64,000 nucleotides of DNA from Hydnum rufescens UP504 (lineage: Eukaryota > Basidiomycota > Agaricomycetes > Cantharellales > Hydnaceae), in the NCBI GenBank assembly GCA_014904985.1, contig MU129032.1, forward strand, positions 36,284-100,283. Reading direction: 5' to 3'. The notes below the pieces were generated by a model that was not told the DNA's origin, ran no database searches, and saw only the letters and a list, made by a program, of their open reading frames with translations. Below, in pieces: positions 1,401 through 41,058 of the stretch (positions within the stretch are counted from its first letter, which is position 1; each line of letters opens with the position of its first letter). The position numbers and the translations under genes are program-made.

Positions 1401-1727
1401 TCTTGTCTCTTATGCCTGACATGTACAGATTATGAGAGCATTTGTGAGGTCGTGCAGCATGACCTCCGCCATATACCCACTGGTTCAATTAGAATATTTG
1501 TCATAAACTACATGTACCTCCGTGAACACTCAATCTTCTCACACTTGGGGCCTATGGAATGAACAACACGACGAAACGTTTACTTCGCCAGGGGCGGCTC
1601 GTGTTCCCACTCCTCTCATCACTTCCTCAGCACCTTCCTCATCGTCCCCAAGCAGTTCTCGTCTTAACCCCTCAATTCGAACAAAAAGATGCAATCGCTC
1701 CAAATTCCCAACTGCCAAAGTTGTCAG

Positions 1728-1843
1728 CACCTTGGTCAGTCATCTAAGCCTACCTAGTTAGGTACCACTTCTGGGGCAGATAATGGTACCTAAGTAGGTC
1801 CCATCACTATTTCGGCCAAAATGGCCATTTTTATGATTTCACC
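1728..1843 (+). repeat. Type I terminus of element A
   Basis: The first 115 bp match the reverse complement of 40944-41058 with only two differences that I can find (T/C near 1766, A/G near 1817). The block begins CACCTTGGTCAG, contains the imperfect palindrome with two GGTACC cores, and continues with GGCCAAAATGGCC-like palindromes. The same terminal word, in the form CCTTGGTCAGCC, occurs at the right end of element C (34867-34878). Confidence 0.7.
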
Positions 1844-2061
1844 TCCTAGCCCAGAATTGGCCGAAATGGCCAAAAATTGGCTGAAACTGGGACTTAGAGA
1901 ATCTCAGACTTGCAGCAGGTCATACGGGCATACCAGGGATAGTTCCATTTATAATTATTTATATTATACATATACCCCCACTCAGTGTTTCCTTCAGTGG
2001 TCAGTCCTGTTATTGACTTGTTTATTTATTGATTTATTTATTTAAAAAATTCAATTAATAT

Positions 2062-2300
2062 ACTACACACCCGCTTGGGCGGGTATGGTACCATCCCTCA
2101 AAATTAAAAAAAATAAATAAGTAGCACCACACCACCCTAGCGGGTGTGGTACTGTCCATACAAATCAAAAGAAAAAAAAGCACTACTTAGTAGCACCACA
2201 CACCCGCTTGGGCGGGTGTGTGGTACCGATCCCTCAAAATTTAAAAAAGAAAAAAACTAAGTAGCACCACACCCGCTTGGGCGGGTGTGGTACTGGGGGC
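2062..2300. repeat. Four hairpin-A copies without introns
   Basis: Four hairpins at about 2062, 2125, 2193 and 2263 share the form CACACCCGC-loop-GCGGGTGTG with GGTAC at the base. A/T-rich spacers of about 65-70 bp separate them. The outermost copies lack the intron hairpin. The corresponding outer block on the opposite strand is at 40545-40705, where hairpins also occur without introns. Confidence 0.6.
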
Positions 2301-2377
2301 TGGGCTTGACAATTCATCGTTGGGCGGGTCGTTTGGACGAGTCATGGGTCGTCATTTCGGGGGCTTCAATTTGGATC

Positions 2378-4600
2378 CTAAAATAATAGCATACATTAGT
2401 AAAAAAAAAAATTCAAAGTGACGCAAAGGAGCAGCCTGGGCTGCTCCTCTTGTCGTCATGGTATATATATAAATTTTTAAAAAAATACCTTGTAGTACCA
2501 CACACCCTGCTTCAGCGGGTGTGTGGTACTCATCTTGTACCGTGGTCGCCGCGTAGTTTGGGCTCGGTTTTCCATTTCGCGGGTCAGCTCAGATCCTAGA
2601 ATAATAGAAGCAATTCGAAGTGAGCAAAAGGAGCAGCGCAAGCTGCTCCTTTTACGTCACCGATACGTGTAGAAAGTTTTAAAAAATACCTATAGTACCA
2701 CACACCCGCTTTGGCGGGTGTGTGGTACTCGTTTTGGCCCGCGGTCGCGCACCCCCCACCGTCGGTTTTTCGTACAGGGCTCAGGGGGGCTGGGGGGTTT
2801 TCGGGCATGTACTCGTTCAGGGAGGAGCAAGATCTAGAATAAAAAAATTTAGATTAGTAGGAAGTTAAAAGTGACGCAAAAAGAGCAGCTGTCGCTGCTC
2901 TTTTTGCGCCACTGTATCTATGGGGAACGGGACTCACCTTAGATGACCACACACTCGCCGCCGCGGGTGTGTGGTCTGGCCCATTTCCCTCAGTTCGCTG
3001 GTCGGGTGTGGCGAGTTGCGTCGCGGTTGCGGTTCGCGGGTATTTTTTCGCGGGGTCGCGGGTCTTTTTCGGCGGGGTCGTGGGTCTTGATTAGAGTGTT
3101 TGGGGGGGGGGGGGTCGTGGGTTTAGATGAGAACCTGGAACCAGATAATACATAATATGTTAGTAAAAAAGAAAAAAAGAAAAAGCTACGCCAAAGGAGC
3201 AGCGTATGCTGCTCCTTCGGCGCCACTATATGTTACGAGAATACTTACCTTAAAATTACCACACACCCGCCGAAGCGGGTGTGTGGTTCCGTCTGGGGTT
3301 TCTGGGTCTTGCGTTGTGCGTTCCCGTTCGCGGGATTCGTCTGGTGGGTGTTCCTTGGTCGGTCGTCGTTCGCGGGTTTCGTTCGGTACTTGTTGTTTTG
3401 GCGGGTTGCGTTTGTGGCTTTCCTTTGGCGGGGGCATTGTCATTTCCGCGGGGGGGAGTTCGTCCAGGGATCTTCGTTTTGCTGTTTGGGGTTCAGGCGA
3501 TACTGTAACCTAAAATAATAAATCATGTGTTAGTTAAAAAGTAAAATCAGCGCGAAAGAGCAGCAGATGCTGCTCTTTTCGCGCCATTGTGGGTATACAA
3601 TATTACTTACCTTATAGAACCACACACCCGCCGTAGCGGATGTGTGGTTCATAGGGGTTTTGGCGTCGTTTTGCTGGCGGGTTATCGTTTCGGGGGGGTT
3701 GTTTCACGGCTCTTCATCTGCAGCGATAACCTAGAATGGATCTATTAGTTCAAAAATTAAAAGCAGTGCAAGAAGAGCAGCATTTGCTGCTCTTCTTGCA
3801 CTATTGGGGATGTATAAGTCTACTTATCTTATATAGAACTACACACCCGCCGCAGCGGGTGTGTGGTTCGCATCATCGCCACCTCTCGCCCCTTCGTTTC
3901 GCGTGGTTTCGTTGGGGTGTGGTTTCGTCTGGCGTGGTTTCGTTGGGCGCGGCTTCGTTTGCCGTGGTTCGGTTGCTGTGGTGGTGTGTGAGCCCTAGCC
4001 CGTCGGGCCCCGTCGTTGGGCACCTGGGACCAGGCCAAAACCTAGAATCATCAAAGTAGTTAGTAAAGGCATTTAAACCAACGCAAAAAGAGCAGCTTTC
4101 GCTGCTCTTTTTGCGCGGTAGGGTATAGAACTTACATAGAACCAGACACCCGCCGTGGCGGGTGTCTGGTTTGAGTCGGTTCTTTGGTGGGGTGTTCGTC
4201 GGGTTTTCACTTGGCGCAGTTTCGGTCGGGGCTCGTAGGGTGTTGGTGCGGCTTGAGACCTAGAATATTAAAATATTATTTAGAAATTCGAAGCAGCGCA
4301 AAAGGAGCAGCTATCGCTGCTCCTTTTGCGCGGCTGTATCTATTGGGGGGGGGAAACTCACCCATTGGGCGGTCCGTCGTTTGTTTGGGTATGGCTCTTG
4401 CCGTTCGGACCCTCGTCGTGCGGCGGGTTTTCGTCTCTGGCCGCAGACCATAATCTAAAATAATAAAAGCTATATTAGTATAAGAATTCAAAGTGGCGCA
4501 AAAAGAGTAGCTTGCGCTACTCTTTTTGCGCCATTGTCTCTACTAAGACAAAAACTTACCTTATGACCACACACCCGCAGCAGCGGGTGTGTGGTCGTGT
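2378..4600 (-). repeat. Left array: nine intron-like cassettes on the minus strand
   Basis: Intron-like segments, read on the minus strand, are at 4455-4559, 4260-4361, 4042-4135, 3731-3827, 3510-3610, about 3139-3248, 2834-2937, 2596-2689 and 2378-2488. Most start GTAAGT, GTGAGT or GTATTT, hold a perfect hairpin of the GCAAAAAGAGCAGC type, then a TACTAAC/TACTAAT branch-like site, and end TTATTCTAG or TTATTTTAG. The copy at 3731-3827 has a donor changed to ATAAGT, and the one ending near 3139 has lost its acceptor AG. Exon-like parts are 93-261 nt and most end with the hairpin ACCACACACCCGC-NNNN-GCGGGTGTGTGGT just upstream of the donor. Their lengths are not consistently multiples of three and their translations are low-complexity, so I do not call them coding. 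Confidence 0.65.
4141..4170. other. Hairpin A with paired substitution
   Basis: ACCAGACACCCGC, loop CGTG, GCGGGTGTCTGGT. Compared with the common ACCACACACC...GGTGTGTGGT stem, the C-to-G change in the left arm is matched by the complementary change in the right arm, so the 13-bp stem stays perfect. Confidence 0.85.
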
Positions 4601-4625
4601 GGTCGTGGTCATGCGGTCGTGGTCG

Positions 4626-4643
4626 TGCGCTGTTGCTGCTGCT

Positions 4644-4674
<31 letters not shown>

Positions 4675-4733
4675 TTGCTGCTGTTGCTGCTGCTGTTGCT
4701 GCTGTTGCTGCTGTTGTTGCTGTTGCTGTTGTG
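4626..4733. repeat. CTG/TTG trinucleotide tract
   Basis: A tract of about 108 bp of CTG with interspersed TTG triplets lies just inside the hairpin at 4565. The mirror position in the right arm (about 5460-5490) has no expansion, and the related element at 22985-23010 has only a few CAA/CAG-type triplets. The expansion therefore arose in this arm only. Open frames across it on both strands are by-products of the triplet repeat. Confidence 0.9.
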
Positions 4734-4779
4734 TCGTGGTCGTGTGGTCGCTTGCCGGGTGTGGCTGCGTAGAGTTGCG

Positions 4780-5430
4780 AAATTCAACGCCGGCAATTGC
4801 CGATACTCAAGAAGCGCCTAAGCGCTGGCGCTGCAAGCACAGTACACAATAGTACCAAGCATGTATATTATAAATAGATACTATATAATAAAAATGTGTC
4901 CAGGAAAACCCGAAGAAGACGATGGTAATGAGTCAGAGCTCAATAAGGCATGAGATCGCTAATTACAGAGTGGATTGGGCCACTTCTACGCATCAGAATT
5001 GGCCCAAATTTAAATATAGTAGTGTTATATATACACTCTACATGGGCGATTAATTATCTCGGACGATTTTCGCATTTTTCAATTTTTCACGCCTTCAATT
5101 CCCTATTTAGGGAATTGAAGGCGTGAAAAATTGAAAAATGCGAAAATCGTCCGAGATAGTCAATTGCCCATGTAGAGTGTATATATAACATTACTATATT
5201 TAAATTTGGGCCAATTCTGATGTGTAGAAGTGGCCCAATCCACTCTGCAATTAGCGATCTCATGCCTTATTGAGCTCTAACTCATTATCATCGTCTTCTT
5301 CGGGTTTTCCTGGACAAATGTTTATTATATAGTATCTATTTCACATATACATGCTTGGTACTATTGTGTACTGTGCTTGCAGCGCCAGCGCTTGGGCGCT
5401 TCTTGAGTATCGGCAATTGCCGGCGTTGAA
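4780..5430. repeat. Central palindrome of element A
   Basis: The arms are centred on CCCTA-TT-TAGGG (loop at 5106-5107). Pairing is essentially perfect over about 50 bp on each side and continues outward with scattered mismatches. Outward it includes AT-rich TATA-like tracts near 4862-4892 and 5325-5345, and the small palindromes CGGCAATTGCCG and AAGCGC..GCGCTGG. Differences between the arms, including the CTG tract and hairpin loop sequences, show that it is a real diverged inverted repeat and not a simple assembly fold-over. Confidence 0.8.
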
Positions 5431-5490
5431 TCTCCATCTTGCTTCCCATCTCCGCAACCACAACAAGGAACCGCCCGAAAAGGCAAACGC

Positions 5491-6830
5491 ACGACCACGC
5501 ACCCGCTGCTGCGGGTGTGTGGTCACAAGGTGAGTATTTTTTCTAGTAGATACAACGGCGCAAAAAGAGCAGCGAAAGCTGCTCTTTTTGCGCTGCTTTG
5601 AACTTTTTTACTAACAACCCTTTATTATTCTAGGTCATAGCCTGGTCCCGGGTGCCAAAGGATGAGGCCCAGCCAGTCAGACCCCATACGGTAATACGCG
5701 AACCGAAAACACGCCAAACGAAACGACACGACCCAACGACGCGACACCACGCGACGCAACACCACGCGACGCGACACCACGCGATGCGAAACCCAACGAG
5801 ACCAAACCCAACAACACGAAACCCAGCGACGCGAAACCCAGCGACACGAAACCCCGCAATGCGAAACCCAGCGACGCAAAACCCAACGAAACAACACCCA
5901 GCCAACCGAGCCCGAACGAAAACACGAGAGGTGGTGATACACCGCCCGAGTGGCCATGCGAACCACACACCCGCTGCGGCGGGTGTGTGGTTCTATATAA
6001 GCTAAGTCCATGTTCCCACCCGGCGCAAAAAGAGCAGCACTTGCTGCTCTTTTTGCGCTGTTTTTAAATTTTTAACTAATGTTTTATTTCCTATTCTAGG
6101 CCAGGATATTCCCCCCACGACCGAAAGCCCCCGCGTCACGCGAATCGGAATGCCCGAACGGGCGAATAAACGAATGAAGGCAGGCACACGACGCCACCAA
6201 GACGAAAGTAGGGAGCCACACACCCGCTGCGGCGGGTGTGTGGCAATATTAGATATGTTTTTTTTTAATAACTGCAAACGCGCAAAAAGAGCAGCAGTCG
6301 CTGCTCTTTTTGCGCGAGTTTTGATATAACTGATGTTTTATTTCTATTCTAGGTCAAGCTGTCCAACCTCAATGCGCGGGCCCCCGAGCCAACGAGTACA
6401 CCACCAACCCAACCCCGCCCATACGAAACCACGAACCAGAAGAGCAGGAGAATAGGGCCACACACCCGCCGCGGCGGGTGTGTGGCCATATAATGTATGT
6501 ATTCTTTTAATTTTAGCTAACACATGAAACTTACACCACCAAGCCCGAATCCGCCGACCCACCAACAAAACCCGGCGCGACCCCAGACAACAACCCGCTG
6601 AACGACACGCCGCGAACGAAAACCAGGAACGAAACCCCGCACGACCGCACGAACGAAAACCGCGAACGCCCGTACGAACGAAAACCGCAAACACTCCCTC
6701 GGGAGTCTGCCCAAATGGAGCCCAGGCCCCCGACTGGGGCATATGAGCCACACCCGCTGCAGCGGGTGTGGTGGATTTAAGGTACTTTTCTTCTACTAAT
6801 GTGTTATTTATTAACCTGGCCCACCACCTG
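5491..6830 (+). repeat. Right array: intron-like cassettes on the plus strand
   Basis: The clearest intron-like segment is 5530-5633 (104 nt). It has donor GTGAGT, a 16-bp hairpin at 5558-5593 with loop GAAA, TTTTTTACTAAC, and acceptor TTATTCTAG. Two more, at about 6002-6099 and 6253-6352, keep the hairpin, branch site and acceptor but have altered donors (CTAAGT and ATATGT). Near 6490 and 6780 the intron is shrunken and has lost its hairpin. Exon-like parts are 368 nt (5634-6001) and 153 nt (6100-6252). The first is a low-complexity run of degenerate CGAAACCCAACGA-like repeats. Frames crossing the splice sites are not conserved in phase. Confidence 0.6.
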
Positions 6831-7036
6831 CAAACCCACGACCTGCATGAACTGCCCCCCTGTGGTGGCAGACCCCAGGGGGGGGGATAATATGTATATA
6901 GTGTAATATGTATATAATTACAGTAGTAATAATAATAATAATAAATAAATAAATAATCTAGCACAGCCATGGATTGGCTGAAATGAATCGGAATGGCCGT
7001 ATTTTGGCCAAATTTCGGCCATACTGTCTGGGGACC

Positions 7037-7104
7037 TATTAGGTACCATTTTCTGCCCCGAAAATGGTACCTAATTAGGTCCCCAATTTGACTGACCAGC
7101 CTGG
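7037..7104 (-). repeat. Type II terminus of element A
   Basis: A palindromic block of the form GGGGACCTATTAGGTACC..GGTACCTAATTAGGTCCCC is followed by AATTTGACTGACCAGCCTGG. The same orientation and wording recur at 10529-10605. The opposite orientation (CCAGGCTGGTCAGCCAC) is at 20523, and a related form (CAGCCTGGGCAGTCA) is at 31041. Confidence 0.65.
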
Positions 7105-7127
7105 TTGTCGGTGCGGGTCCGAGTGGC

Positions 7128-10100
7128 ATGATAATGACTGAGTCGAGCCGGATTGGAGGATATCCTTCTGGTCCCATCGTTCAGTCGACCTTCGTTGAAT
7201 CACGCCCATTGGATATCGACTTCGAGCCCGAGCTTGCACCTGAGGTTCATATACATCTCGACCAGGATAAACGTTCTTGTCATGCCCGATGGAAGCATGC
7301 CCAAGCCCGGCACTGGGGAGATGAGGTGCTACCATCTTTGATTTGACCCTATGAGCTTTCAACGGGGGCGAGATGCGGGGGACAAGGTGGACCCAGCACC
7401 ATCGCTATGCACCTGCAATGAAAAGCATTGTGTACTGAGGGTTGTGTGTGTCCACATGGAGTACCTGGAGCGTGTTCAACTTGTCATCTGCAAATGCAAT
7501 CCTGCCACAGCCCAGCTCGTACGTCGAGGATTGTTCCCCTGCGCACCTTTGTCTCTGACATTGGCTGTCAACATGGACGTCCTAGAGTTTGCATTGGAAC
7601 TCTTTGTTCGCATGGGTCCCAATGAGCGGGCATGGGCGGCCACCATGATGAAGTATCTCAAGGCTCATGGCCATGAATTCGCCACTGCGGACTCACTTCG
7701 TTGGTGATTTGCTAATGCTTTGTTGCACTATCAAGTCCTTGTCCATCTCGTCAACATGGAGATGGCGAAAATCATAGATTCCTTTCATGACCCCTCGCTG
7801 GTGCCCTCAGTGTCATCAACTTCCTTGACATCACTGCCCTCTGGGGCCCCAACATCCCTTGGGTCCTCAGGGCCTTCAGTGCCCTCAATTTCTTCTCTAC
7901 CTTCTGCGGCCCCGACATCAGCAGGACCCCTGACGTACCCAGTGCTAGATGAAATGACACCAATACCTTTTCGAAACTACACTAATGCAGCACAATTCTG
8001 TGGGGCATGTGCAAGATGGGCCAAGCATTTATTTGCAATCCTGGTGTCCCCTTTGTTTTGGGGGAAGTCACACCAGTGGACTAGGTGTCAGCACCATAGC
8101 ATGTATTGATGCCAACTTCCAAATCAAACGCAATCGTGACAAAGATCAGTGGAAGGGCTTCGAAGGCGAAACCGGAGCTAGAGACCCCGAGATCTTTTGC
8201 CAAGAACGGTGGAGCCATCCCAAGTAGAGCTCGATATGATGGAAGCCCGTGTTAATGAGCTCCAACCAACAACGAAAACCCATGTCAACTCGGGGCGAAA
8301 ACGAAAAGCGACTGAGATGACAGAGGATGATCGAGCTGTCCCAGGGAAGATGATGCAGTGGAACCTGGGATGAATGTTCCGAACTCGGTTCTCGATATGT
8401 GTGGTGACTCTTTCATTGCAGCGGATGGTGATCGCATTAAAGCTTCTACCAGCAGTTTGATGATACCAGGCTCATGGCCTTACTGTGTTGCCATGACATT
8501 GCCCTTTACGTTGCCAACATGCGCACAGCTGGCGAGAAACAATTTTATGCATTTGCCCTCGTCGCGGCTCTTTTCAAGGAGTTGCCGGAATGGTGGACTG
8601 TGGGGATATTGTATGACATTGTGTGTCAAATCCATCGAAGTCTCCTAAAATGGAACTTTATGCCTGAATGGCATAGTCGCATCGTCTTTGGTGTCTCAGT
8701 CTTCCATGCGTATGGCCACCAATGGACGTGCCAGCTATGGTATCATCCTTGGAAGTCGGAGATCTGGGGCCTTTCTGATGGTGAAGGCTGTGAGAGGTTT
8801 TGGAGTGAACTCCGAAGACTTATTCCCTCTCTAAGGGTTACAGGCTATCACCAACGACTCTTTATCATTGACCTCCAGGTGGAGCACATTGATGAACTGA
8901 AGCAGCAGGGCCTGGCGAAATGGCTGCATGATCGCACTTTATCTGCTCACAAGCAGGAAGGAGAGGCGATGGCAAGGCTTGGTGGGCAGTCTATCTCGTA
9001 CCTCCTGGATCAGTTCAAGTCACAACGAGCTTTCCAAAGCAAACCGATGCCCCGCCAGTCGAAAACCAAAGGAGCTCGTGCAATTGAGCACATCTTGTCC
9101 ATGACACAGACTGCGCAATCCCTGCGGATCCATCTCAAGGAAACGGTGGATGAGCTGGGAGAGCTTGCAACTGATAGCAGCACTGTGGTGGTAGAGGATG
9201 AGCTACGGGCAAAGATTGAGGCTATGCGGTCAAGTATAAAGCGCATCGAGAGTAACATCAAGAAAAAGACGGAGGAACTGCATCTCTCTGATCGGATGTC
9301 CCATAAAGAGTTGGATCGCCTTAAGACCGATAAATGGGTGAACCTACAGCTCAATATACGCGTTGTTCGAGATCAAATTCTGATAAAACTGCGAGCGCGG
9401 AAGTTTGAACTTGCGGGATTGGATCGTGCAGATACTGGCCGCGAGCTTGACCACCGAAGGAAGGAGCATGTTGAAAAGGCAATGAAGAGCCGGGTCTCTG
9501 GAGTACAAGGGGCTCTAAAGCGATATGAGGAGATCCGAAGGGAGATGATGAAGCTTCGGGGGAAGGGGAGTGTTGCAGCGGATGCTTATATCCCCCCAGA
9601 GATATCCTCGTCTGTCTACAAGCTAGATGTAGATGAAGATATCTGGCAAGTACCTCATCATGAGGATCTTGCAAACTTTCCTGATGGAGAGGTACCTGCG
9701 TGGCTTAGAGATAAGGGGGTACGGGATGGGATACGAGCTGCCCAAGAGATTCTAAATTGCCGCCAGGAGCTGGAGCGTTGCAAGGCTGAATTCTCTAACT
9801 TACATACATGGTTTATGACCCAATGTTCTGCCACATGGCATGCATATACTCTTTCTTGTGGTATGTAATCTACATTTGGCTGTCATGATAGGGGTTGACT
9901 GAATTAGCCTCATTCTGCTAGATGCAGAGGTGAAGTTCTTTGCATTACTAGAGTTGCATCACCTGCATGATTTGGTAGAGGCTTGGCAGAGGCATTCATC
10001 AGCAATGCTTGGGAGTGATGGCCAGATTGGCTGGATGAATCTTCCTGAGCAGCCTCCTCCCCTTTGTTATGGTAGGATTCAGATACTGTGTGGGCCTGTG

Positions 10101-10359: not shown

Positions 10360-10528
10360 GTGGATTTGGGACAAGTTCACACATTTGGGCCCCATTGGTG
10401 CAGGCAGTTTGAATGTATCCACTTGGGTCATTTGGGCCCCACTTGGCCCATTTGGGCCCCATTTTGGGCCCCATTGCATTGATACTGCTCTTTAACTTTG
10501 GATTTGGGCCCTAGTGGGGCCAGTATTG
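10360..10528. repeat. GGGCCCC-rich 3' flank of the KDZ gene
   Basis: Several copies of a TTTGGGCCCCA-type word lie between 10383 and 10520. Similar GGGGCCCC-rich words occur at 20513-20660 and next to the ends of element C (31123, 34795). No gene is visible in 10224-10528. Confidence 0.5.
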
Positions 10529-10605
10529 TAGGACCTACTTAGGTACCAATTCATGGCACAGATTTGGTACCTAACATAGGTAGTCAATGTGGTTGACCAG
10601 CCTGG
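10529..10605 (-). repeat. Type II terminus downstream of the KDZ gene
   Basis: Same layout and orientation as 7037-7104: GGACCTACTTAGGTACC, spacer, GGTACCTAACATAGGT, then TTGACCAGCCTGG. The KDZ gene is therefore bracketed by two termini in the same orientation, not by an inverted pair. Confidence 0.6.
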
Positions 10606-10610
10606 GTAAT

Positions 10611-11420
10611 TTTAAGGTAAATACAATACGATCGCTACAAAGGAGGCAGCATATGCTGCTCCTTTGGTCATAGCTTTTCTTTTTGTTTTTTTACTACATA
10701 GTATTCCTTATCCTAGGTTTTGATCTACCCCACCCCCCAAACGAGACCACAAATGACAGAACACGGGAGGCCACAGAAGCCCCGGATGAACCCACACCCG
10801 CTTCAGCAGGTGTGGATAATAATTTTTAATGTAAGTATTTACTGTTTAAGTATGACTGCGCAAAAGGAGCAGCATGTGCTGCTCTTTTGCATGGTTTTTC
10901 TTTTTTTACTAACTTATTACTTATTGTCATAGGTATTCTTCTAAACCCTCAATCAAGACTTGTGACCCACCGAATAAATACGCAACAACGGCAACCCATC
11001 CCCCAAATGAAACCCGCAAATGACAGAACACGATGCGAGGCTACAGAAGCCCAGATGAACCCACAACCTGCTTTGGCGGGTGTGATAATTTTTAAAGTAA
11101 GTATTCGCCCTCTATAAGTACGACCGTGCAAAGGAGCAGTGCAAGCTGCTCCTTTTGCATTACTTTGAATTTTTTTACTAATATACACTATGATTCTAGG
11201 ATCCAAAACAACGACCCACCCAATGGCAACCGCAACCTGCGCCAATGGTGAAATGCCAAGCCACACCCCTGGTACCACACCCCACCAAGCGGGTGTGTGG
11301 TGCTACTAGATAAACTAGTTTTTATTTTAATTTTTTTGTTCTTTTATTTCTATGGACATACCACACACCCGCTAGAGCGGGTGTGTGGTCTAAAAAAAAA
11401 AAATAAGTAGTTTTTTTTTT
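10611..11420 (+). repeat. Third cassette array, plus strand
   Basis: Three intron-like segments lie at 10617-10717 (GTAAAT..TTTACTACA..CCTAG), 10831-10932 (GTAAGT..TTTACTAAC..CATAG) and 11097-11199 (GTAAGT..TTTACTAATA..TCTAG). They are 101-103 nt, each with a central hairpin of the AAAGGAGCAGC-4 nt-GCTGCTCCTTT type (loops ATAT, ATGT and GCAA). The exon-like parts are short and end in degenerate hairpin A copies. Two clean hairpin A copies without introns follow at about 11275 and 11366. Confidence 0.6.
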
Positions 11421-20740: not shown

Positions 20741-20745
20741 CCAAG

Positions 20746-21985
20746 AAGAGCAGCCAGAGGCTGCTCTTCTTTCACAATTATAGCTAAAAGAAAAAAAGAC
20801 TTACCTAAAGGGGATACTTACCTCCACCCCAGTCGGGGTGCCATTCGCCGGTTTCGTTTGTGGTTTTCGTTTGCCAGTTTGATTCACGGGTTTCATCATG
20901 GGTTTCATTCATGGCATGTCATTCAGCGGGTTTGTGGTCGGGGTCTGGGGTTTGTGTGGGTTCTGCTACAAGATCTAGATAAATAAATAATAGATTAATG
21001 CAGTGCAAAAAGAGCAGCTTACGCTGCTCTTTTTGGCCACAAGAATTAAAAATGAAAATAAAAATAACACTTACCTTGTAGTACCCCACACCTGCTGTGG
21101 GGGGTGTGGGGTACTGGGCTGGTTGGTGGGTTGATGGGTTGATTTGGGCGGGGGTGTGTGTTTGCGCATTGGGGTTGGACACCCCAACCTAGAATGGAGA
21201 GCAATATGTTAGTTAAAATCAAAAGTCACGCAAAGAGAGCAGTGACTGCTGCTCTCTTTGTGCATTTGTAGCTATTCAAAAATATACATACCTTATATAG
21301 CCACACACCTGCCACAGCGGGTGCATGGCTCTCTGTTTCCCTGCTCGTCTTCTCATGTGGCTTCCTGTGCATGTCGTCGTTCGTTCATTCATTCATTCGT
21401 TCATTGGCTCATTTGTTTCATCCCTGTACCATATTGTTCGGGTGTCGATGGGCAGGGTTACAGGGGTTCTTCGCATGGGTATTCGTTCATGTGGGAAGTG
21501 ATGACCTAGAATATAAGATTATATATTAGTTAAGAGTTAAACAACATGCAAAAAGAGCAGCTTTCGCTGCTCTTTTTGCATGGCTGTAGGTAGTGGGGGG
21601 AGGAACTCACCTGATATGGAACCACACACCCGCCACAGCAGGTGTGTGATTCCTGGCGCGTCATTTGACATGGTCGCATCCTCGTTTGGCGTGGTGCCGT
21701 ATATCGTGTCGTTGGTGCATTGCTGTGTTGCGTGCCTGTGTCATGTTGCCGTACGTTGCGCTGCCGTGTCACATTCCCATGCATTGCGCTGCCATGTCGC
21801 ATTCCCATGCGTTGCATTCCCATTTGGGCTCTCATCATGTGTTGGGTGAGGCCTCAATCTAAAATAAATAAAGGCACATTAGTAACAAATTCCAAAGCAG
21901 CACAAAAAGAGCAGCTTTCGCTGCTCTTTTTGCGCTGTTGTATCTACTGGAAAAAAAGACTCACCTTGTGACCACACACCCACAG
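20746..21985 (-). repeat. Fourth cassette array, minus strand
   Basis: Four full intron-like segments, read on the minus strand, lie at 20975-21074 (100 nt), 21189-21291 (103), 21506-21610 (105) and 21859-21964 (106). Donors are GTAAGT, GTATGT, GTGAGT and GTGAGT, and acceptors end in CTAG or TTTAG. A hairpin remnant is at 20746. Paired changes are clear in the stems: ATGCAAAA..TTTTGCAT at 21546-21581 in place of GCGC, AAAGAGAGC..GCTCTCTTT at 21227-21255, and hairpin A as GTACCCCACACC..GGTGTGGGGTAC at 21081-21114. Confidence 0.65.
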
Positions 21986-22212
21986 CAGCGGGTGCATGGT
22001 TGTGCACTTGCCTTTTCGGGTGGCTGCTTGTTGTGGTTGCAGAGATAGGAAGCAAGATGCAGATTCAATGCCAGCAATTGCCGATATTCAAGAAGCGCCC
22101 AAGCGCTGGTGCTGCAAGCACAGTACACAATAGTACCAAGCATGTATATTTAAAATAAATAATATATAATAAATATTTGTCCAGGAAAACCTGAAGAAGA
22201 TGATGATAATGA
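21986..22212. repeat. Inner arm homologous to 4785-4930
   Basis: It shares the CAATTGCCGATA, AAGCGC..GCGCTGG and TACTATTGTGTAC-like text with the inner arm of element A. It then stops where an LTR fragment begins. The centre of this palindrome has been lost. Confidence 0.65.
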
Positions 22213-22898
22213 GTCTTTCTCTTATTATTATTGCCCTTGTTCTATCAGGCCTCGGCCAGCGGGCTATGGGCTGGGTAGTCAACCAGTGGCAGCATTGGCG
22301 CCCTTGTCAGCACCTGTCGTTCCCTCGCTCCCCACGTGAGTCCATGGAGTTGCCAATCCAGACTCCCCCTCCTCCTCCTCTACCCCAGTCCCTGAATCCA
22401 CATCACCTGTCCCAATCCGTACTCCATCCACATCATTACGGTCATTTGACACTTTGGACACCTTTGGAGTACCCAAGCGTACACTGCCTTGGAAGTACAT
22501 ATGCTAAGGGGGATACATATGGAAGTTGGGCATAGCCATGTGGAGGTGCGCACAGGATTCATAACACGGCTGCGTCAGCTTAGTGAGGCTTAGTGATGGT
22601 GGCTGTGGAGGCTGACTGATGGGCTGTGGAGCCGGCATTCTAGGAGGATCCGGAAGGTTATGGAAGACGGCAGAAGGCTCTGGAAGGTTGGAGGCTGTGT
22701 GCAGGAAATAGTATTTATAGCCCTTCGCAGTTGGGGATCACCAGTTTTGATCTCTCAGGATTCCCACTGCGATAGGTGCGAGACTTGTGTGTCCCTTGTT
22801 GTGTGGTGTATACTCAGGATTCCCACTGCGATAGCGTGTGGTTAATTAATCTCTTTCCTCTTTCTGTTTGTGGCTTCGACGGCAGTGTCGCCCTGACA
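22213..22898 (+). mobile_element. 5'-truncated LTR in the centre of the cassette element
   Basis: It matches the 821-bp LTR at 54837-55657 from its TCTTATTATTATTGCCC region to the CCCTGACA end. It contains the TATTTATAGCCC promoter-like motif (22708-22720) and the AGGATTCCCACTGCGATAG phrase twice. The LTR start is missing, so the insertion was accompanied or followed by deletion of the palindrome centre. Confidence 0.7.
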
Positions 22899-23151
22899 GT
22901 ACTGTGCTTGCAGCACCAGCGCTTGGGCGCTTCTTGAATATCGGCAATTGCCAGCATTGAATTTTGCAACTACGCAGCCACAAATGCAACTGCACGACCA
23001 TGACACAACAGCAACAGCACACAAGCATGACTGCACAACCACGACCACATGACCACACACCTGCTGATGCAGGTGTGTGGTCATAAGGTAAGTTTTGTCT
23101 TCAGTGGATACAATAGCGCAAAAGAGTAGCACAAGCTACTCTTTTTGCCAG
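22899..23151 (+). repeat. Opposite arm with a truncated cassette
   Basis: Hairpin A at 23051-23082 is GACCACACACCTGC, loop TGAT, GCAGGTGTGTGGTC. This is a perfect 14-bp stem with a C:G to T:A pair swap relative to the common CCCGC..GCGGG form. A donor AAG|GTAAGT follows at 23088. The intron hairpin GAGTAGC-ACAA-GCTACTC is cut off at about 23151, where the next element starts. Confidence 0.65.
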
Positions 23152-23153
23152 CC

Positions 23154-24517
23154 CTGGCTGTAAGATCATATGCTAAAAACCCACAAAGCTCATGTAGAAA
23201 TTGATGCTATGGCCAGGAGCTTCATGGGATAGCATTATCCATGAGCTTCATGGGAGATAGCATCACATTACACATGAGCTTCATGGGATAGCATTACCCA
23301 TGAGCTTCATGGGAGATAGCATAGCATTACACATGAAGACCCACAAGTGTTGCTAATGCCAAATATGGTAATAATGTAGTTAGGGTTAGGGTTGGAATTG
23401 TCTGGAGTCTACCCCAATGCCCAGTGAGGTTAGGGTTAGGGTTTAATAAATTACATAATATTCTATATTTGGCAATATTACTAATCAACTTTCATATTTA
23501 GCAATATTACATAATATTTGATTACCTAATCAACTTTCATATTTGGCAATATTACATAATATTTGATTACCTAATTAATTTCCATATATAGAAATATTAC
23601 ATAACATTTTTATTACCTAATCAATTTCCAGATATGGAAATATTACATAATGATTTTCCATATTTGGAAAGCCTTACCTAAGCTACCATATATGGCTATA
23701 TTACCTAATCTAATTACATAAGCAAAAAAGCGGAAATGGGGGGGGGCCCCAGGGGGATTTGTTGAAAGCCTTGAGCCTTATATGTTCCTCAGAATGTCTG
23801 TGTGCAGGGTTGACCCAGTTGTGGGACGTTTGAGTGTCATTTAAATCCAAATGACACTCAAACGTCCCACAACTGGGTCAACCCTGCACACAGACATTCT
23901 GAGGAACATATAAGGCTCAAGGCTTTCAACAAATCCCCCTGGGGCCCCCCCCCATTTCCGCTTTTTTGCTTATGTAATTAGATTAGGTAATATAGCCATA
24001 TATGGTAGCTTAGGTAAGGCTTTCCAAATATGGAAAATCATTATGTAATATCTCCATATCTGGAAATTGATTAGGTAATAAAAATGTTATGTAATATTTC
24101 TATATATGGAAATTAATTAGGTAATCAAATATTATGTAATATTGCCAAATATGAAAGTTGATTAGGTAATCAAATATTATGTAATATTGCTAAATATGAA
24201 AGTTGATTAGGTAATATTGCCAAATATAGAATATTATGTAATTTATTAAACCCTAACCCTAACCTCACTGGGCATTGGGGTAGACGTTCCCAACCCAACT
24301 CCAGACAATCCCAACCCTAACCACCAACCCTAACCACCAACTCCAACCCCCAACCCCCAACATTATTACTATATTTGGCATAGCATCACTTGTGGGTCTT
24401 CGTGTGTAATGCTATGGTAATGCCATTGCACGAAGCTCATGGGTAATGCTATCCCATGAAGCTCCTGGCCTTAGCATCAATTTCTACATGAACTTCATGG
24501 AGAAATCTTATGGCCAG
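23154..24517. mobile_element. Near-perfect foldback element with telomere-like repeats
   Basis: Terminal text CTGGCTGTAAGAT (left) matches CTGGCCATAAGAT (right, reverse strand). Arms of about 670-690 bp meet at a hairpin with a 6-nt loop (23823-23868). The inner 150 bp or so of each arm are identical by eye, including a 9-base G run. Both arms carry TTAGGGTTAGGG, and the right arm has an additional expanded AACCCTAACCACC tract. Inside each arm a unit of about 45-50 bp (CATATTTGGCAATATTACATAA) repeats. There is no coding capacity. It sits exactly where both the cassette array and the Ty3 element break off. Confidence 0.75.
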
Positions 24518-24604: not shown

Positions 24605-25114
24605 TCATGCCTGTCGACGAGTGAGGAGTTTCATGGAGGTGAAGTACTCCAAGTTTTTGTGATCCGTGATGTCGGAAACTGTGTGCACGGCTCCTTCGAG
24701 ATATGCTTGCCAGGCGCCAAAGGTGTCGAAGATTGCGAGGAGTTCCTTGTTGTGGATGTCGTAGTTTAGTTCCGCACTTTGCATTGATCGCAAGTGGAAC
24801 ACAACAGGTCGAACTTCATTGTTCTCATCGATTTGTGACAAGATCGTGGTGATGGCATAGTTGGACGCATCAGTTTCTACAATGATGTGTAATTCAGGGT
24901 CGAAGTGGCAGAGGACAGGGGCTGATACGAAGGCATTTTTGATGCTTTCAAAAGCTCGTTGGGTCTCGTCGTTCCATGTGCAAGGTTTCGTCTTTTTTGT
25001 TAGATGGATTAAGGGGTGTGCGAGGTCTGAGTAGGTCATGCGATGAAGCGGTGGTAGAAGTTCGCAAAGCCTAAGAATGACTGGACTTCTTTTACTGAGG
25101 TGGGCGCGGGCCAA
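24605..25114 (-). pseudogene. Ty3 RNase H region
   Basis: Encodes the tail of the RT thumb (WNDETQRAFESIKNAF) followed by the Ty3 RNase H fold. Visible motifs are ETDASNYAI with the catalytic-type Asp, PVVFHLRSM, ELNYDIHNKELLAI with the catalytic-type Glu, and TDHKNLEYF. The frame ends at 24605 against LLTRRQA and can be followed in another frame for about 80 bp toward the truncation. A frame change separates it from the RT domain upstream. In an intact element it would degrade RNA in RNA:DNA hybrids during reverse transcription. Confidence 0.8.
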
Positions 25115-25284
25115 CTTAGGATTGCGTCGAATTTTGTAGGGTCCATCTGGATGCCAGAGGGGGTGATGATGAAGCCGAGGTACTCAATAGTGTCTGTGTG
25201 GAAGGTGCACTTCAAGATCTTGGCACAAAGGTTTCTTTCGTGGAGTCATTGTAGTACATGGCGAACATGTTCACAGTGTTCTTC

Positions 25285-25752
25285 TCATGAATTGGAGAAA
25301 ATGAGGATGTCATCAAGATATATGATGACGAACAGATCCACCATATCCTGGAATGAGTCGTTCATGAAATACTGGAACTGCGCTGGGGAGTTGGCTGCTC
25401 CCATTGGCATTACGAGCCACTCATAGGCACCGTACCATGTACGAAATGATGTGAGCCACTCGTGTCCTTCGGCAACTCTGATGTTGTAGTAGCCATCATG
25501 AAGATCGATTTTTGTATAGATCGTGGTGCTGCGAATGCGATCGAGGAGGTTGTTGATGAGGGGGATGGGGTAGCAACTCTTTTTCGTGATGCGATTGAGT
25601 GCTCGATAATCAACGCAAAGGCGAAGCCTGCCACCTTTCTTTTTCGTGAAGAGGATTGGCACGCCTGTGGGGGAGGTCGAAGGGCATATGAATCCTTTTG
25701 CAAGGAATTCATCGATGAACTCACGTAGTGCTGCGAGTTCGCTTTCCGACAT
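25285..25752 (-). pseudogene. Ty3 reverse transcriptase core
   Basis: 155 residues containing FTKKKGGRLRLCVDYRALN, the TKIDLHDGYYNIRV block with the first catalytic Asp, LVMPMGAANSPAQFQ, and the YLDD box (FVIIYLDDILIF) with the two catalytic aspartates intact. A TGA follows SNS. The surrounding family wording suggests an original CGA codon, so this is a CpG-type change. The conserved text continues after the stop (EEHCEHVR) into [10 protein letters not shown]. The catalytic core is therefore preserved, while the protein as a whole is not. Confidence 0.85.
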
Positions 25753-26280
25753 TGGGTATATGGGGCCTCGCAGTACTTCACGTCCTTCTTCAATATCAAC
25801 TCGAAGGTCGTACTTGCAATGCGGTGGTAGATAGCTGGCCGCTGTACCAGTGAAGATGTCGTGGAATTCAGGGTATTCCAGGGGGAGTCATTGTGCGAGG
25901 TCTTTGCGTTCTTTGATTGGGATTGATTTGGGTAACACAGAGGTGGGGGGAGTGTCACAAACCACTGATGCTGTTCATGTGCGTGGGTTGGATTGGTGAT
26001 GACGCATGCGTAGAGTGTCGTGCCATCATCACTGGCTGCTTGAATGAAGTCTTCGGCTTCGTAGACTTCAATTGTGATGCTGTGAGCTGGAGGGCTCGTG
26101 GTTGTTGGTTCCAGGGTCGAGGCAGTCGTTGCGATGACATCGATGCTTAATGGCATCGTTACAAGTTTTGAGTGGTGCGCCATGTGCTCGATCCGCATTT
26201 CGGCCCATGAGATTTGTGGATTGACTTGTCACAACCAGGGGAGTCCCAGTACGATGGGAGTTGAGGAGTGGAGTTGCGAT

Positions 26281-26931
26281 TCAACGAACTTGATATTTTG
26301 TTGTGCATGAGTTCGTGAAGGTGACTGGGAGTGTAACTATACACTTGAGGTTGTTCGTGATTGATCTGTCGAATAATCGCAGGGGGTGTGGTGTCGCCAG
26401 ACAACGACGATGCGGCGTGGTGTGTGAGTTCTGTACTTGCGATGCGTCAATGAAGTTTTCGGAGGTGCTGCAATCGACGAGTGCCGAGATGGGGCTGTCC
26501 GAGAGGAGGGGAATTGAGACCATCGTGATGAATGATGATGGGGAGAGGGAAGAGATGGTGGCTCTTAGATGAGCGGTTCCATCGGGGGGGGATGATGATG
26601 AGATCTCAGTGATGCGAGGTTCCTCTGTTGTGCTGGGGCCTCCTGAGAAGGTGAATGTAGCGCGAGCTACTGGGGTGTGCAACATTGCTGTCATGGTTGT
26701 GCTGCTGGTACTGGTGGGTGTCGCGGCAGGTGTCATCGTGGTTCGCAGTATGTTGCGATGACTGGGGCAACTCTCTACTGCATGGTTGCTATTCCCACAG
26801 TATGCGCAGAGCTTTTCGCATCTTCGTTGTTCCTTTTCCTCTTCGGTGAGCGCGCTGTTAGACTTGTGAACTTTCGGGTCACACAGGGGGTTTGTTGAGG
26901 ATGAAGGGGATGTCGACGGTGAGGGGTTCAT
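26281..26931 (-). pseudogene. Zinc knuckle and aspartic protease region
   Basis: A CCHC knuckle is visible as CAYCGNSNHAVESC (C-x2-C-x4-H-x4-C), preceded by a charged EEEKEQRRCEKL segment. About 100 residues later comes ALVDCSTSENFID. This aligns with the retropepsin active site, usually D-S/T-G, but here the Gly position is not conserved, so protease activity is doubtful. The region lies between Gag and RT as expected for Ty3. The next frame downstream (25410-26198) carries the linker before RT. Confidence 0.7.
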
Positions 26932-27004
26932 GGTGCTGGGTTGTGTGCCGCGATCTGAGGTCCTCGTGGCTTTGAGTTCCTCTTGGCGTTCCCAATACCG
27001 GCCA

Positions 27005-27799
27005 TCAAATCTTAGCGCTGGCTTGGTACATGCCTTGAAGTTTCACAGGCTTGCCGTCTCGTGAGATGTCATCTTGTAGACGGTTCGGTAAGCCTTGGTA
27101 GAACTGTGAGTGGAGTGGGTTGTTGTTCCACCTGGTGAGGCTCACTACTTCCTTGAACTGGTTGATGTAGCGGAGGATGCGGTGGTTGTTGTTCATCTTG
27201 AGCGCGCATAGTTTTTGCTCTTGAGTTGCGACCTCATCTGGGTCTCCGAAGTACATGTGGAGCTCTTCCTCAAAGAGCATCCAGCTGGAGAGTGTGGGGG
27301 ATTCTTCCGTCTCCATGATGAGGCATTGGAACCATTGCCTTGCTGTATCCATGAGATACGATCCGGCCCAGATGATGTGTGCACTCTCTAGCATGAATCG
27401 TGATGGTTGTGATCGGAACGCCATTTTGCAGTGCACAAGGAATCCGTATAGTTTCAAGGGTCGTGCCCGAGAACATCTCCGGCTCTTTGATTTTGGGTTC
27501 ACAAAGTGCATGTCCCGAGGTTGCGGAGGGTTGGGCGATTGTCGCTGTTTCGCGGTATCGTGGAGTGGTGGGGAGGTGTTTGAGTTTGGTTCCTCGATGG
27601 TCCACGCCTGGAGTTGGGGCCCTGAATGCAGAGCCCAGGTGTGGGGGGGTGGAGTGCGCATCCTCGAACATCGTGCATTGCAGAGTTGGTTGCATGATGT
27701 TGCTAGGTGGTGCATACGTGACTGAATTGCCTCGTGGTGTGTTGTCGAGGTTTTGAGGTGAAAACTCATTGTTTTCCTCGGGGTAGGTTTGGGGCTCAA
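27005..27799 (-). pseudogene. Ty3 Gag-like protein
   Basis: 264 residues. The C-terminal half shows the retrotransposon Gag pattern ARQWFQCLIMETEE, LFEEELHMYFGDPDE, KLCALKMNNNHRILRYINQF and FYQGLPNRLQDDIS. The N-terminal part is Pro/Ser/His-rich. Nothing shows packaging signals directly. Assignment rests on motif order and its place between the LTR and the zinc knuckle. Confidence 0.75.
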
Positions 27800-28327
27800 A
27801 GTGGGGGCTTCAAGTGAGGGTGCGAGGTGCGAATTGCGAGTTGTGCGCTGCGGGCAAGACTACTTGTCTCGGTCACGTATTTGCATCGAGGATGGGTGAC
27901 CGCAAATTGCAGTGCGTGACTTCATTTCACAGCTCTTGGTTTTTGTTCGCGAGTTCTTCGAGGCGAGCGTTCATCTGGGCATTGGTGTGTGCCATTTCCG
28001 CTTGTATCTGCGTGCTGCGTGCTAGGTCTGCCTGCATTTGTTGCAGCATGTGCAGGAGCATTGTCTCAGTGCTCGAAGTTGATGTGGCGCTGGGAGGGTT
28101 TCCCATGTGCGACCTTGCGTCGAGTTGGGTGGTGTTTGTATCATGGGATACGTCGTCCGAGGGGTGATTGGCGCCTTGAGGACAATTGGAGAGGAGAGGG
28201 TGGAAGTGGATTCGACGGTGGCTGTGTCATCGCGATAGTTGTCAGCGACTGGTTGTGGGTGTGGGTTTCGTCGAGTGGAGGGCATATTGAGTCTTTCAAG
28301 GAAGTCGGTTATTTAGATCGAGAATAC

Positions 28328-28783
28328 TGTTAAGGGTTGTACTCGAGGCGAAAGATACGATGATGTAATCGGATCGAATACAAGGAAATGCCCTTAAGGC
28401 AATTGATGAGGGAGTCGTGAAGTGGGGATTATGTAAGTCACAAGAGACAGTACATATGAGGAAGACCGGCTTCTTGAGACTTAATAGGTGAAGGTTTTGA
28501 GATGAGAGTCACGAGCGATAACTGAGATCGCGAGAGTTGAATTCAATCGGTTGACAATATATTCTCGATCTTCTAAAGAGTGAGTGTACATCAGGTAACT
28601 ACTTATACTATTAGAGATCAAAAGGGTTTATGGATAAAGGGTGTTGAATAAAGGAGGGATGTATATAATAGGAATTGCTGAAAGAGGAAGGCACAATGGC
28701 AGCAAGGGGGAAGGTCACATGATGGCGCGATTGGCTTGGTTATTCTGCATATGTAAGTGAGGTTACGAGTATGACTCATAACA
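28328..28783 (-). mobile_element. 5' LTR of the minus-strand Ty3 element
   Basis: 456 bp, bounded by TGTTAAGG and TCATAACA, so the ends are a short TGTTA..TAACA inverted pair. It is related to the solo LTR at 56750-57111, which ends CGTAACA and shares text such as CTACTTATA..AGAGATCAA. Confidence 0.7.
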
Positions 28784-28829
28784 CACCCCAACCACAGGCC
28801 ACCCCAGATGATGGAAGACATACAAACTT

Positions 28830-30086
28830 GTGTCTCACCACTACTGGTGGCCAGGGATGTCACGGTATGTCGCAACCTATGTCTCCACCTGTGACACCTG
28901 CAATCGGACCAAAACCTTCCCATCCAAACCATCCAGAACTCTCCACCCTAATCCGGTTCCGGACCGCCGATGGCAAGTCATATCAGTAGACATGATCACG
29001 GAGCTCCCAGAGTTGCATGGATTTGACAGTGTGATGATCGTTGTCGACCGACTCTCCAAATGGATTCATGTGATGCCCACAACGACCACAGTGGACTCCG
29101 CCAGAGTCACCCACCTTTTCTGAGACAATGCCTGGAGGCACCATGGCCTTCCAGAGACCATCATCAGCAATCGGGGCACCACATTCTCCTCGAAGTTCAT
29201 GAAGGAACTCAACTCACTCCTTGGAGTTAAAACCAACTTCTCCACAGCATTCCACCCCCAGACAGACAGACAGACAGAGCAAGTCAATCAGGAGATCAAG
29301 CAGTACCTCTGGATCTTTGTCAACCACAGACAAAATGATTGGGCAGACTGGCTCCCTATGGCGGAGTTTGCATACAATAACTGGATTCACTCCTCCACCC
29401 AGGAAACCCCATTCCGCCTTGACTCTGGCCAAGATCCTTGCCTCAGTACTGAACCAATCCACCCTGGAGTTGTTGAAGCAGCCACGGACTTTGTCACATG
29501 GATGCAGAAAACCTCTGAGGAAGCCCAGTCCACTCTCCGCCAAGCAGCCGAGGACATGGCTCATCACTATGATGCACACCGGACAGAAGCCCCAGAGTAT
29601 GCAGTCGGAGACTCAGTATGGCTGGATGCTCACAACATTTCCATTGACCGCCCAGCCTGGAAACTCTCGGACAAGTGGTTAGGCCCATACAAAGTGGACA
29701 AGGTGATCTCCCACTCTGCTATCCAGCTCAAACTTCCCCCCTCCATGCAAGTCCACCCAGTGTTCCATGTCTCGAAACTCCACCCTTTCTGGCCTGACCC
29801 AATTACGGATCGTGTTGCACATCCTCTGCCTCCTCCTATCCTCCATGGTGGTGAGGAGGAGTATGAGGTGGAATGGATTGAAAACTCCCACTATTTCCGA
29901 GGCCAACTCCAGTACTTGGTGAAATGGAAAGGCTACCCACCCTTGGAGAACCAATGGCTTCCAGAGACCAATCTAGGTAATGCCCTGGAAGTCATCACGG
30001 AGTTCCACCTTGCTCATCCGGAGCTCCACGGCGGATCAGTGCCATTGACTTCTCCTCCATTGGGTTCCGGACATGTCCACTCCTAA
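28830..30086 (+). pseudogene. Ty3 integrase with chromodomain, frameshifted
   Basis: The first block (28830-29123) has the zinc-finger end CDTCNRTK and WQVISVDMITELP with the first catalytic-type Asp, then a stop at 29121. The second block (29199-30086, 295 residues) carries QTDRQTEQVNQEIKQYL with the catalytic-type Glu, LPMAEFAYNNWIHSS, the KWLGPYKVDKVI region and HPVFHVSKLHPF, and ends in a chromodomain (EEEYEVEWIENS..LVKWKGYPPLENQWLPETNL). Between them the second catalytic position reads SNRGTTF. In Ty3 integrases this is usually S-D-R-G, so the Asp has become Asn. Two independent defects make it inactive. Chromodomain integrases target heterochromatin in related elements, which fits this region. 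Confidence 0.85.
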
Positions 30087-40215: not shown

Positions 40216-40329
40216 ATAGACCCCGCGACCCCACGAAAGACAGCCGTGAGAAAGGACACCCCGTGAACCCCCCAAAATGATCCCGCTGGTACAAAACAGT
40301 ACCATTCATACCCCACTTCAGGTGGGTGT

Positions 40330-40720
40330 TTGGTATACAAAAGTTTTTTTTTCAAATTTCTATATGTGCAACGATGCAAACAGGAGCAGGCACAAGCTGC
40401 TCCCCTTTTGCAATCATTCAATTTTTGTTTACTAACATACAGTATGCAGTTCTAGGATCCAAATTGAACACCCCCAAAATGCGACCTACCCCAATGGGCA
40501 ACCCGCACCCCCACGGTGAAGTGCCAAGCCGCACCCCGACCACACCCGCCCAAGCGGGTGTGGTACTACTACATAGTTTTTTGTTTATAAGTTTCTACGG
40601 ATGGTACCACACCCGCCTAAGTGGGTGTGGTGCCACTAGATAGTTTTTTTTATATTTTATTTTAAATTTCTACAGATGGTACCACACCTCAGTGAGTGTG
40701 GTGACTTTTTAAATAAATAA
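40330..40720 (+). repeat. Fifth cassette array, near the right type I end
   Basis: One intron-like unit (about 40340-40456) has a degenerate donor, the hairpin GGAGCAGG-CACAA-GCTGCTCC, TTTACTAAC and TTCTAG. Three hairpin A copies without introns follow at about 40545, 40606 and 40680. The layout mirrors the outer left part of element A. Confidence 0.6.
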
Positions 40721-40734
40721 ATAAATAAAAAATA

Positions 40735-41058
40735 AACAACTCAGTAAGAATAAAACAGAACTGCCGAATTAAACCCCACTGACTGGGGGTAGCAGTGATA
40801 ATAAATAAATAAATAATTATAAATGGAACATGTTATCCCCGATAAGCCTGTATGGCCTGCTGCAAGTCTGAGATTCTCTAAGTCCCAGTTTCGGCCAATT
40901 TTCAGCCAATTTTCAGCCATTTCAGCCAATTCTGGGCAAGGATGTGAAATCATAAAAATGGCCATTTCGGCCGAAATAGTGATGGGACCTACTTAGGTAC
41001 CATTATCTGCCCCGGAAGTGGTACCTAACTAGGTAGGCTTAGATGACTGACCAAGGTG
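40735..41058 (-). repeat. Type I terminus and subterminal block
   Basis: The reverse complement matches 1728-1990. Identity is very high in the outer 115 bp and about 90 percent further in. It ends CTGACCAAGGTG at 41047-41058, immediately before the IS3EU-like gene text. Confidence 0.7.

Follow-up and report, generated by a model that had tools for sequence, protein, structure and literature searches.

What kind of DNA carries row upon row of intron-like units, each built around a hairpin of its own? The question is raised by a 64,000-nt stretch of the Hydnum rufescens UP504 genome (GCA_014904985.1, contig MU129032.1, positions 36,284 to 100,283, forward strand), called the window here and numbered from its first letter. 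An initial annotation of positions 2378-6352 described repeated units with a splice donor, a hairpin (hairpin B below), a branch site and an acceptor, and a second hairpin at the end of each exon-like part (hairpin A). We conclude that these units are the internal parts of a transposon. Our explanation is a non-autonomous element, mobilised by a KDZ transposase, that would make structured, spliced non-coding RNAs; we regard this as probable and hold it with moderate confidence.

Comparison of ends placed the mobile unit at 1728-7103. This 5,376-bp element (element A) has CA...TG termini and is flanked by a target duplication of 8 bp. Its host is a KDZ transposon, and the empty site is known from another copy of the same transposon: the uninterrupted KDZ copy in locus L045 carries GTTGTCGG a single time. 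The empty site, the target duplications and the repeated ends show that the element is mobile. The units annotated within 2378-6352 were confirmed, and that interval proved too small for the true element. The four paired stem changes described earlier are also present, namely GAGTAGC/GCTACTC (hairpin 4492-4535), GCAAGAAGAG/CTCTTCTTGC (3765-3802), CCAGACACC/GGTGTCTGG (4140-4171) and ATGC/GCAT (21545-21582), as are the intron-like units at 5530-5633, 10831-10932 and 21506-21610. Units lie on the minus strand at 2378-4560 and 20743-21964 and on the plus strand at 5530-6352 and 10831-11199. Some units of element A are damaged. The minus-strand donor at 3827 reads ATAAGT (by eye), and the unit around 2629 has no clear branch site and was not assigned an orientation by the unit annotation. 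A CTG/TTG triplet repeat is found at 4626-4735, close to the start of the left arm.

The family was searched for in the whole genome (63 Mb, 539 contigs). The hairpin B core AAAAAGAGCAGCNNNNGCTGCTCTTTTT was found at 6,408 places with up to three mismatches, and at none with a reversed-pattern control. This core is its own reverse complement, so 6,408 matches per strand are 6,408 places. The exact layout GTAAGT...hairpin...CTAAY gave 328 + 370 matches genome-wide, which include some places counted twice through overlapping ends; the control gave 0. Element ends were matched 354 times on the left (up to three mismatches) and 320 times on the right (exact). Twenty left/right end pairs lying 4.4-7.1 kb apart were picked by eye among the matches listed. 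Nine have a perfect target duplication (four of 7 bp, five of 8 bp) and one has an 8-bp duplication with one mismatch. The ten copies with a duplication are 4,468-6,054 bp long. A paired centre (CEN-minus, CEN-plus) occurs two times in the window and in nine of the 17 loci that were fetched, and the units that flank it point outward on both sides. The spacer TCATAAG or TCACAAG precedes the donor of the first recognised unit in 16 of 22 arms, and the spacers of later units differ. Nested or truncated copies are common among the loci. The earlier view of a multi-copy, intron-shaped family with maintained folding stands, but the intron cassette is not the mobile unit: a whole transposon of 4.5-6 kb with two divergent arrays moves. 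The element in locus L029 is closely related to the one in L028; it has its two arms in reversed order and many CG to TG/CA changes, which suggests methylation-driven decay. Exact matches to the 28-nt hairpin core also occur in 4 viral and 106 prokaryote stretches. The 84 stretches listed (80 prokaryote) have one core place each, except L116 with two; the prokaryote matches are perhaps transcription terminators.

The transposon interrupted by element A encodes a KDZ transposase (PF18758, E 4.3e-41). A 3.5-kb query from it gave at least 48 genome matches; beyond the window, 12 at 93-97% and one at 81% cover it fully. All five KDZ copies examined (the one in the window and four others) end in GACCAGCCTG after an array-type terminal hairpin, and their flanks differ. 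Kyakuja elements make a 7-bp target duplication and have CA..TG ends, Zisupton elements make an 8-bp duplication (PMC12730594), and Cryptococcus KDZ1-3 make duplications of 4-8 bp (PMC12810828). The 7-8-bp duplications of the array elements, in nine of 20 end pairs and at the empty site, are of this kind, and their CA...TG ends are also alike. As the right terminus is shared and KDZ elements make 4-8-bp duplications, the array elements are likely mobilised by the KDZ transposase of other elements in the H. rufescens genome. Unlike KDZ transposons, the array elements have no transposase, and structured introns fill their two divergent arrays. Inverted repeats are reportedly lacking in Kyakuja, while the array elements end in short, imperfect ones that bear hairpins. 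Nothing resembling intron arrays was found in the available parts of the KDZ literature (PMC12730594, PMC12810828).

Splice motifs were counted in the window and 17 loci, 18 sequences in all, and 20,000 random places were drawn from the same loci. GTRAGT is found 5' of 115 of 185 oriented hairpins, versus 3.4% of random places (about 18-fold), and CTAAY 3' of 144, versus 7.2% (about 11-fold); orientation was partly chosen by splice motifs, which may inflate the two hairpin counts up to about twofold. Donor, branch site and acceptor are all present at 88 of the 185 hairpins (1.4% of random places), and the others are variant or damaged. By their motifs (GTRAGT donor, CTRAY branch, YAG acceptor) and fungal spacing the units are predicted U2-type introns. 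The full pattern is fitted by 93 units, a few of them counted twice where loci L030 and L031 overlap. Their introns are 88-129 nt long and hairpin A lies 6-13 nt 5' of the donor in 91 of them, with peaks at 7, 9 and 11. Splicing of the units is suggested by these motifs, by their spacing and by the RNA-specific conservation described below.

Two sets of hairpins were used. The stricter one (193 hairpins, 185 oriented, 8 dropped) served for wobble and loop counts. The looser one (320 candidates, 194 oriented, 126 not) includes chance hairpins and at least one misoriented unit of the window (6287); it underlies the tree tests, the hairpin A counts (134 oriented, 47 not) and the linker and accessibility measurements. 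When up to four hairpins per locus were sampled from the 185 (66 hairpins), 13 of the 18 pairs of hairpin B had changed on both sides. None of 500 shuffles reached any of five measures of paired change, and slid controls reached at most 8 pairs. On a tree of 170 intronic hairpins, pairs 1-18 underwent 45 canonical-to-canonical double changes, versus 5.2 ± 2.2 under the null and at most 10 in slid controls. Hairpin A gave 16 such changes (pairs 1-13, 122 hairpins), versus 2.3 ± 1.5 under the null and up to 9 in slid controls.

The two strands of a DNA palindrome are expected to be equivalent. Those of hairpin B are not: its sense strand has 236 G.U and 104 A.C pairs in the 185 oriented hairpins, and the excess is seen in 38 of 47 non-tied arms (p 2.5e-5). 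The G.U to A.C counts are 45 to 22 at pairs 1-13, 91 to 57 at pairs 14-16 and 100 to 25 at pairs 17-18. GNRA loops number 49, versus one for the reverse complement; with exact stems genome-wide there are 91 matches (about 76 places, 15 being second matches) versus 6. The predicted RNA hairpin is more stable on the sense strand in 88 of 132 cases, less stable in 40 and equal in 4. Related copies are not independent, and the strand and loop counts are accordingly softer than they look. The asymmetry points to selection on RNA and not on DNA alone. Together with the aggregate covariation it supports a maintained fold of hairpin B that is at least partly RNA, where the annotation had left RNA or DNA open. 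The signals of hairpin A are weaker and mixed: UNCG loops outnumber their reverse complement 107 to 30 genome-wide, and predicted stability is higher on the sense strand in 72 of 134, lower in 52 and equal in 10. Its G.U/A.C counts are 35/43 at pairs 2-3, which include a CpG, and 35/20 at pairs 4-13. The even counts at the CpG suggest that the elements have no general strand bias of mutation.

How the element may work can be outlined from these features. The central palindrome would be a two-way promoter from which two non-coding transcripts run outward, complete copies being inverted duplications. Each transcript would comprise several exons, with introns about 105 nt long between them; an intron would consist of donor, 18-bp hairpin, branch site and acceptor, and a second hairpin would stand at the exon end, mostly 6-13 nt before the donor. 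We infer transcription from the centre, splicing, and KDZ as the mobilising enzyme. Folding of hairpin B would take out about 40 nt and leave a donor-branch linker of about 45 nt; with the linker shortened in this way, the hairpin is expected to work as a "zipper stem", an aid to the spliceosome. Linkers were measured in 128 of 171 oriented intronic hairpins with 4-nt loops, the rest having no recognised donor, branch site or acceptor or a stem below 12 bp. Medians are 27 nt from donor to stem, 18 nt from stem to branch site, 18 bp for the stem, 106 nt for the intron and 45 nt for the total linker (quartiles 41-52). After trimming of outer pairs, at least 10 bp of stem is left in 122 of the 128. 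Zipper stems of Saccharomyces likewise lie between donor and branch site, shorten the distance and leave a linker of 42-85 nt (PMC12350175). This linker length is found in 92 of the 128 Hydnum introns, and 38 lie within all limits (at least 10 nt at the donor and 20 nt at the branch site); hairpin placement roughly fits the yeast zipper stems. The Saccharomyces examples are introns of host genes, whereas in Hydnum a single transposon family repeats one stem design in hundreds of introns or more.

Several observations weigh against this explanation. The annotation had proposed an R-scape test; paired change was significant in aggregate, but our own strict per-pair imitation of that test gave no pair at E<0.05 for either hairpin. 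Its three top-scoring intronic pairs are stem pairs. Hairpins were chosen by likeness to the core motif on both arms and not by complementarity, which limits the divergence seen. Template switching in quasi-palindromes could be behind part of the paired changes. Among the 340 hairpin B cells with G.U or A.C, 125 come from the weakly paired outer pairs 17-18, and hairpin A has no overall wobble bias (77 G.U, 77 A.C; 17 versus 15 arms). In the predicted folds the donors are unpaired only in part (median 0.41, or 0.27 with 45 nt of exon). Ten of the 20 end pairs have no recognisable target duplication; these may be mispaired ends or recombinants. At the KDZ copy C6, a 4.9-kb stretch upstream of position 215000 showed no array-type left end.

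The terminal hairpins common to KDZ and array elements, the extra A hairpins without introns near the left end and the even wobble of hairpin A all speak for hairpins that work as DNA, that is, as palindromic subterminal repeat arrays bound by transposase, with splice-like motifs being incidental. A DNA-only palindrome should be symmetric, however, and it is the excess of G.U and of GNRA loops in hairpin B, the UNCG loops of hairpin A and the enrichment of donors and branch sites (with the orientation caveat) that make this explanation unlikely in our judgement. The paired changes could also be purely mutational, with template switching copying one arm onto the other and no selection on folding. 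The two halves of the centre are indeed 0.86-0.96 identical within an element (11 centres) and about 0.81 on average between elements (at least 0.9 for some closely related pairs, up to 0.96); this difference from the between-element mean suggests that inverted copies are homogenised on a larger scale. Template switching does not explain why G.U exceeds A.C or why GNRA and UNCG loops stand on one strand, and we find it quite unlikely as the full cause.

Dicer products are 21-24 nt long. The hairpins, with stems of about 18 bp and mostly 4-nt loops, are short for such products, and no Rfam family reached its gathering score within the window. A role of the spliced introns or exon hairpins as precursors diced into silencing RNAs is therefore very unlikely, even though short perfect hairpins are numerous and fungi do make hairpin small RNAs. 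A decayed family of multi-exon protein-coding genes was considered as well, since two annotated H. rufescens proteins (BS47DRAFT_1365174 and BS47DRAFT_1369242) traverse exons of such elements. One of the two gene models uses a donor like that at 5530, and further junctions lie within hairpin A (GTGTGT) (by eye). The gene-model introns near the units reflect gene prediction, which does not prove splicing; some units may use a donor in hairpin A. Between recognised introns lie 70 stretches of 83-678 nt, and some of the longer ones hide an intron missed by the script. Their lengths are even with respect to the reading frame (23/22/25 for 0/1/2 mod 3), stops occur in every frame, and open frames number 15, 10 and 18 in sense and 21, 17 and 28 in antisense. 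Even lengths, stops in all frames and the more open antisense strand speak against protein-coding exons, which we reject, and descent from a coding family is extremely improbable.

Further array elements are found in the window (Table 1). The KDZ transposon appears, from the one side seen, to be inserted into the second array element (10605-11391). A nearly perfect palindrome lies at 31584-34492, with arms of about 1.45 kb (inner 754 nt 100%, outer 702 nt 99%) and 2 nt between them; it is either a further inverted element or an assembly artefact. Another palindrome, at 23407-24285 with arms of about 437 nt, is flanked by telomere-like TTAGGG repeats (by eye). Open frames at 24605-30086 resemble pieces of retrotransposon reverse transcriptase and integrase (by eye).

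Table 1. Positions of element A, its units and hairpins, the KDZ transposon and other array elements in the window
Feature	Position	Strand	Basis
Target duplication, left 8-bp copy, GTTGTCAG	1720..1727	.	comparison with uninterrupted KDZ copy in L045
Whole mobile element A, 5'-CACCTTGGTCAGTC...GACTGACCAGCCTG-3'	1728..7103	.	end comparison; other copies with same ends
Left terminal hairpin region, TTAGGTACC type	1749..1802	.	sequence comparison
Four extra subterminal A-type hairpins, no recognised intron	2063..2292	.	unit annotation
Outermost left-arm intron-like unit	2378..2489	-	donor coordinate by eye
Intron-like unit, 104 nt, AAG/GTGAGT...CTAAT...TAG (slash, splice junction)	2834..2937	-	unit annotation
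Intron-like unit, 114 nt	3135..3248	-	unit annotation
Intron-like unit, 101 nt	3510..3610	-	unit annotation
Hairpin B (intronic), paired change GCAAGAAGAG/CTCTTCTTGC; donor of unit damaged (by eye)	3765..3802	-	
Intron-like unit, 94 nt	4042..4135	-	unit annotation
Hairpin A (exonic), paired change CCAGACACC/GGTGTCTGG	4140..4171	-	sequence
Intron-like unit, 102 nt	4260..4361	-	unit annotation
First left-arm intron-like unit, 105 nt, hairpin B with GAGTAGC/GCTACTC	4455..4559	-	
Central palindrome (two 327-nt arms, 95% complementarity); presumably divergent promoter plus first exons	4779..5434	.	role inferred
Hairpin A (exonic) of first right-arm unit	5493..5524	+	sequence
First right-arm intron-like unit, 104 nt, AAG/GTGAGT...TACTAAC...TAG, GAAA loop	5530..5633	+	
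Second right-arm intron-like unit; donor damaged to CTAAGT in element A	6002..6099	+	donor coordinate by eye
Third right-arm intron-like unit; donor damaged to ATATGT in element A	6253..6352	+	donor coordinate by eye
Right terminal hairpin ATTAGGTACCATTTTC...GAAAATGGTACCTAAT	7038..7075	.	sequence
Target duplication, right copy, GTTGTCGG	7104..7111	.	end comparison, empty site
KDZ transposase ORF (open reading frame; PF18758) of transposon interrupted by element A	8474..9868	+	
KDZ transposon right terminus, like that of array elements: hairpin of TTAGGTACC type, end GACCAGCCTG	10525..10604	+	
Part of second array element; units 10831-10932, 11097-11199	10605..11391	+	
Third element, fragment; left-arm units 20975-21074, 21189-21291, 21506-21610, 21859-21964 (minus strand)	20743..23145	.	
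Third element, right-arm donor	23088	+	
Fourth element, terminal part, left end at 41058	40300..41058	.	

No counterpart of a transposon with arrayed hairpin introns was found in the literature listings of an open-licence library. Foldback or palindromic DNA transposons such as Galileo have long inverted arms; the arms of the array elements differ in carrying outward-pointing donor-hairpin-branch-acceptor units. Introners share with the array elements a high number of spliceosome-type introns, DNA transposition and, in some, target duplications and inverted repeats; in introners, however, the similarity reaches near the splice sites and the copy becomes an intron of a gene (PMC9860276). The array elements have several introns inside each arm, and their ends lie outside the intron arrays and are not splice sites. 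They are not introner-like in the usual sense, since the introns lie within the element and do not form its boundaries.

Why would a non-coding transposon keep so many introns? In Cryptococcus, spliceosomes stalled on transposon transcripts recruit RNAi (RNA interference; PMC6232588), and strong structured introns could therefore protect an element. By analogy, many strong introns might mimic properly spliced host RNA, evade surveillance of badly spliced RNA and keep the element transcribable; this is a deliberate guess, possible but doubtful. More doubtful still is the larger proposal that the transposon evolved arrays of structured, strongly spliced introns, set between non-coding exons, as its main cargo, with the host spliceosome as camouflage against the silencing of badly spliced transposon RNA. 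With both arms transcribed outward the units would have the same sense and the RNAs would not pair, which fits the camouflage idea.

Poor splicing can expose the transcripts of transposons, and single transposons are known to have turned into introns. A non-coding mobile element that keeps very many hairpin introns in arrays would offer a natural experiment in the effect of intron structure on splicing, and the family supplies many naturally occurring stem variants with paired changes, all of the same intron design. The arrays would also bear on whether splicing shields parasite DNA from RNA-based defence. The H. rufescens family may be a case of parasite DNA that evolved to be spliced by its host.

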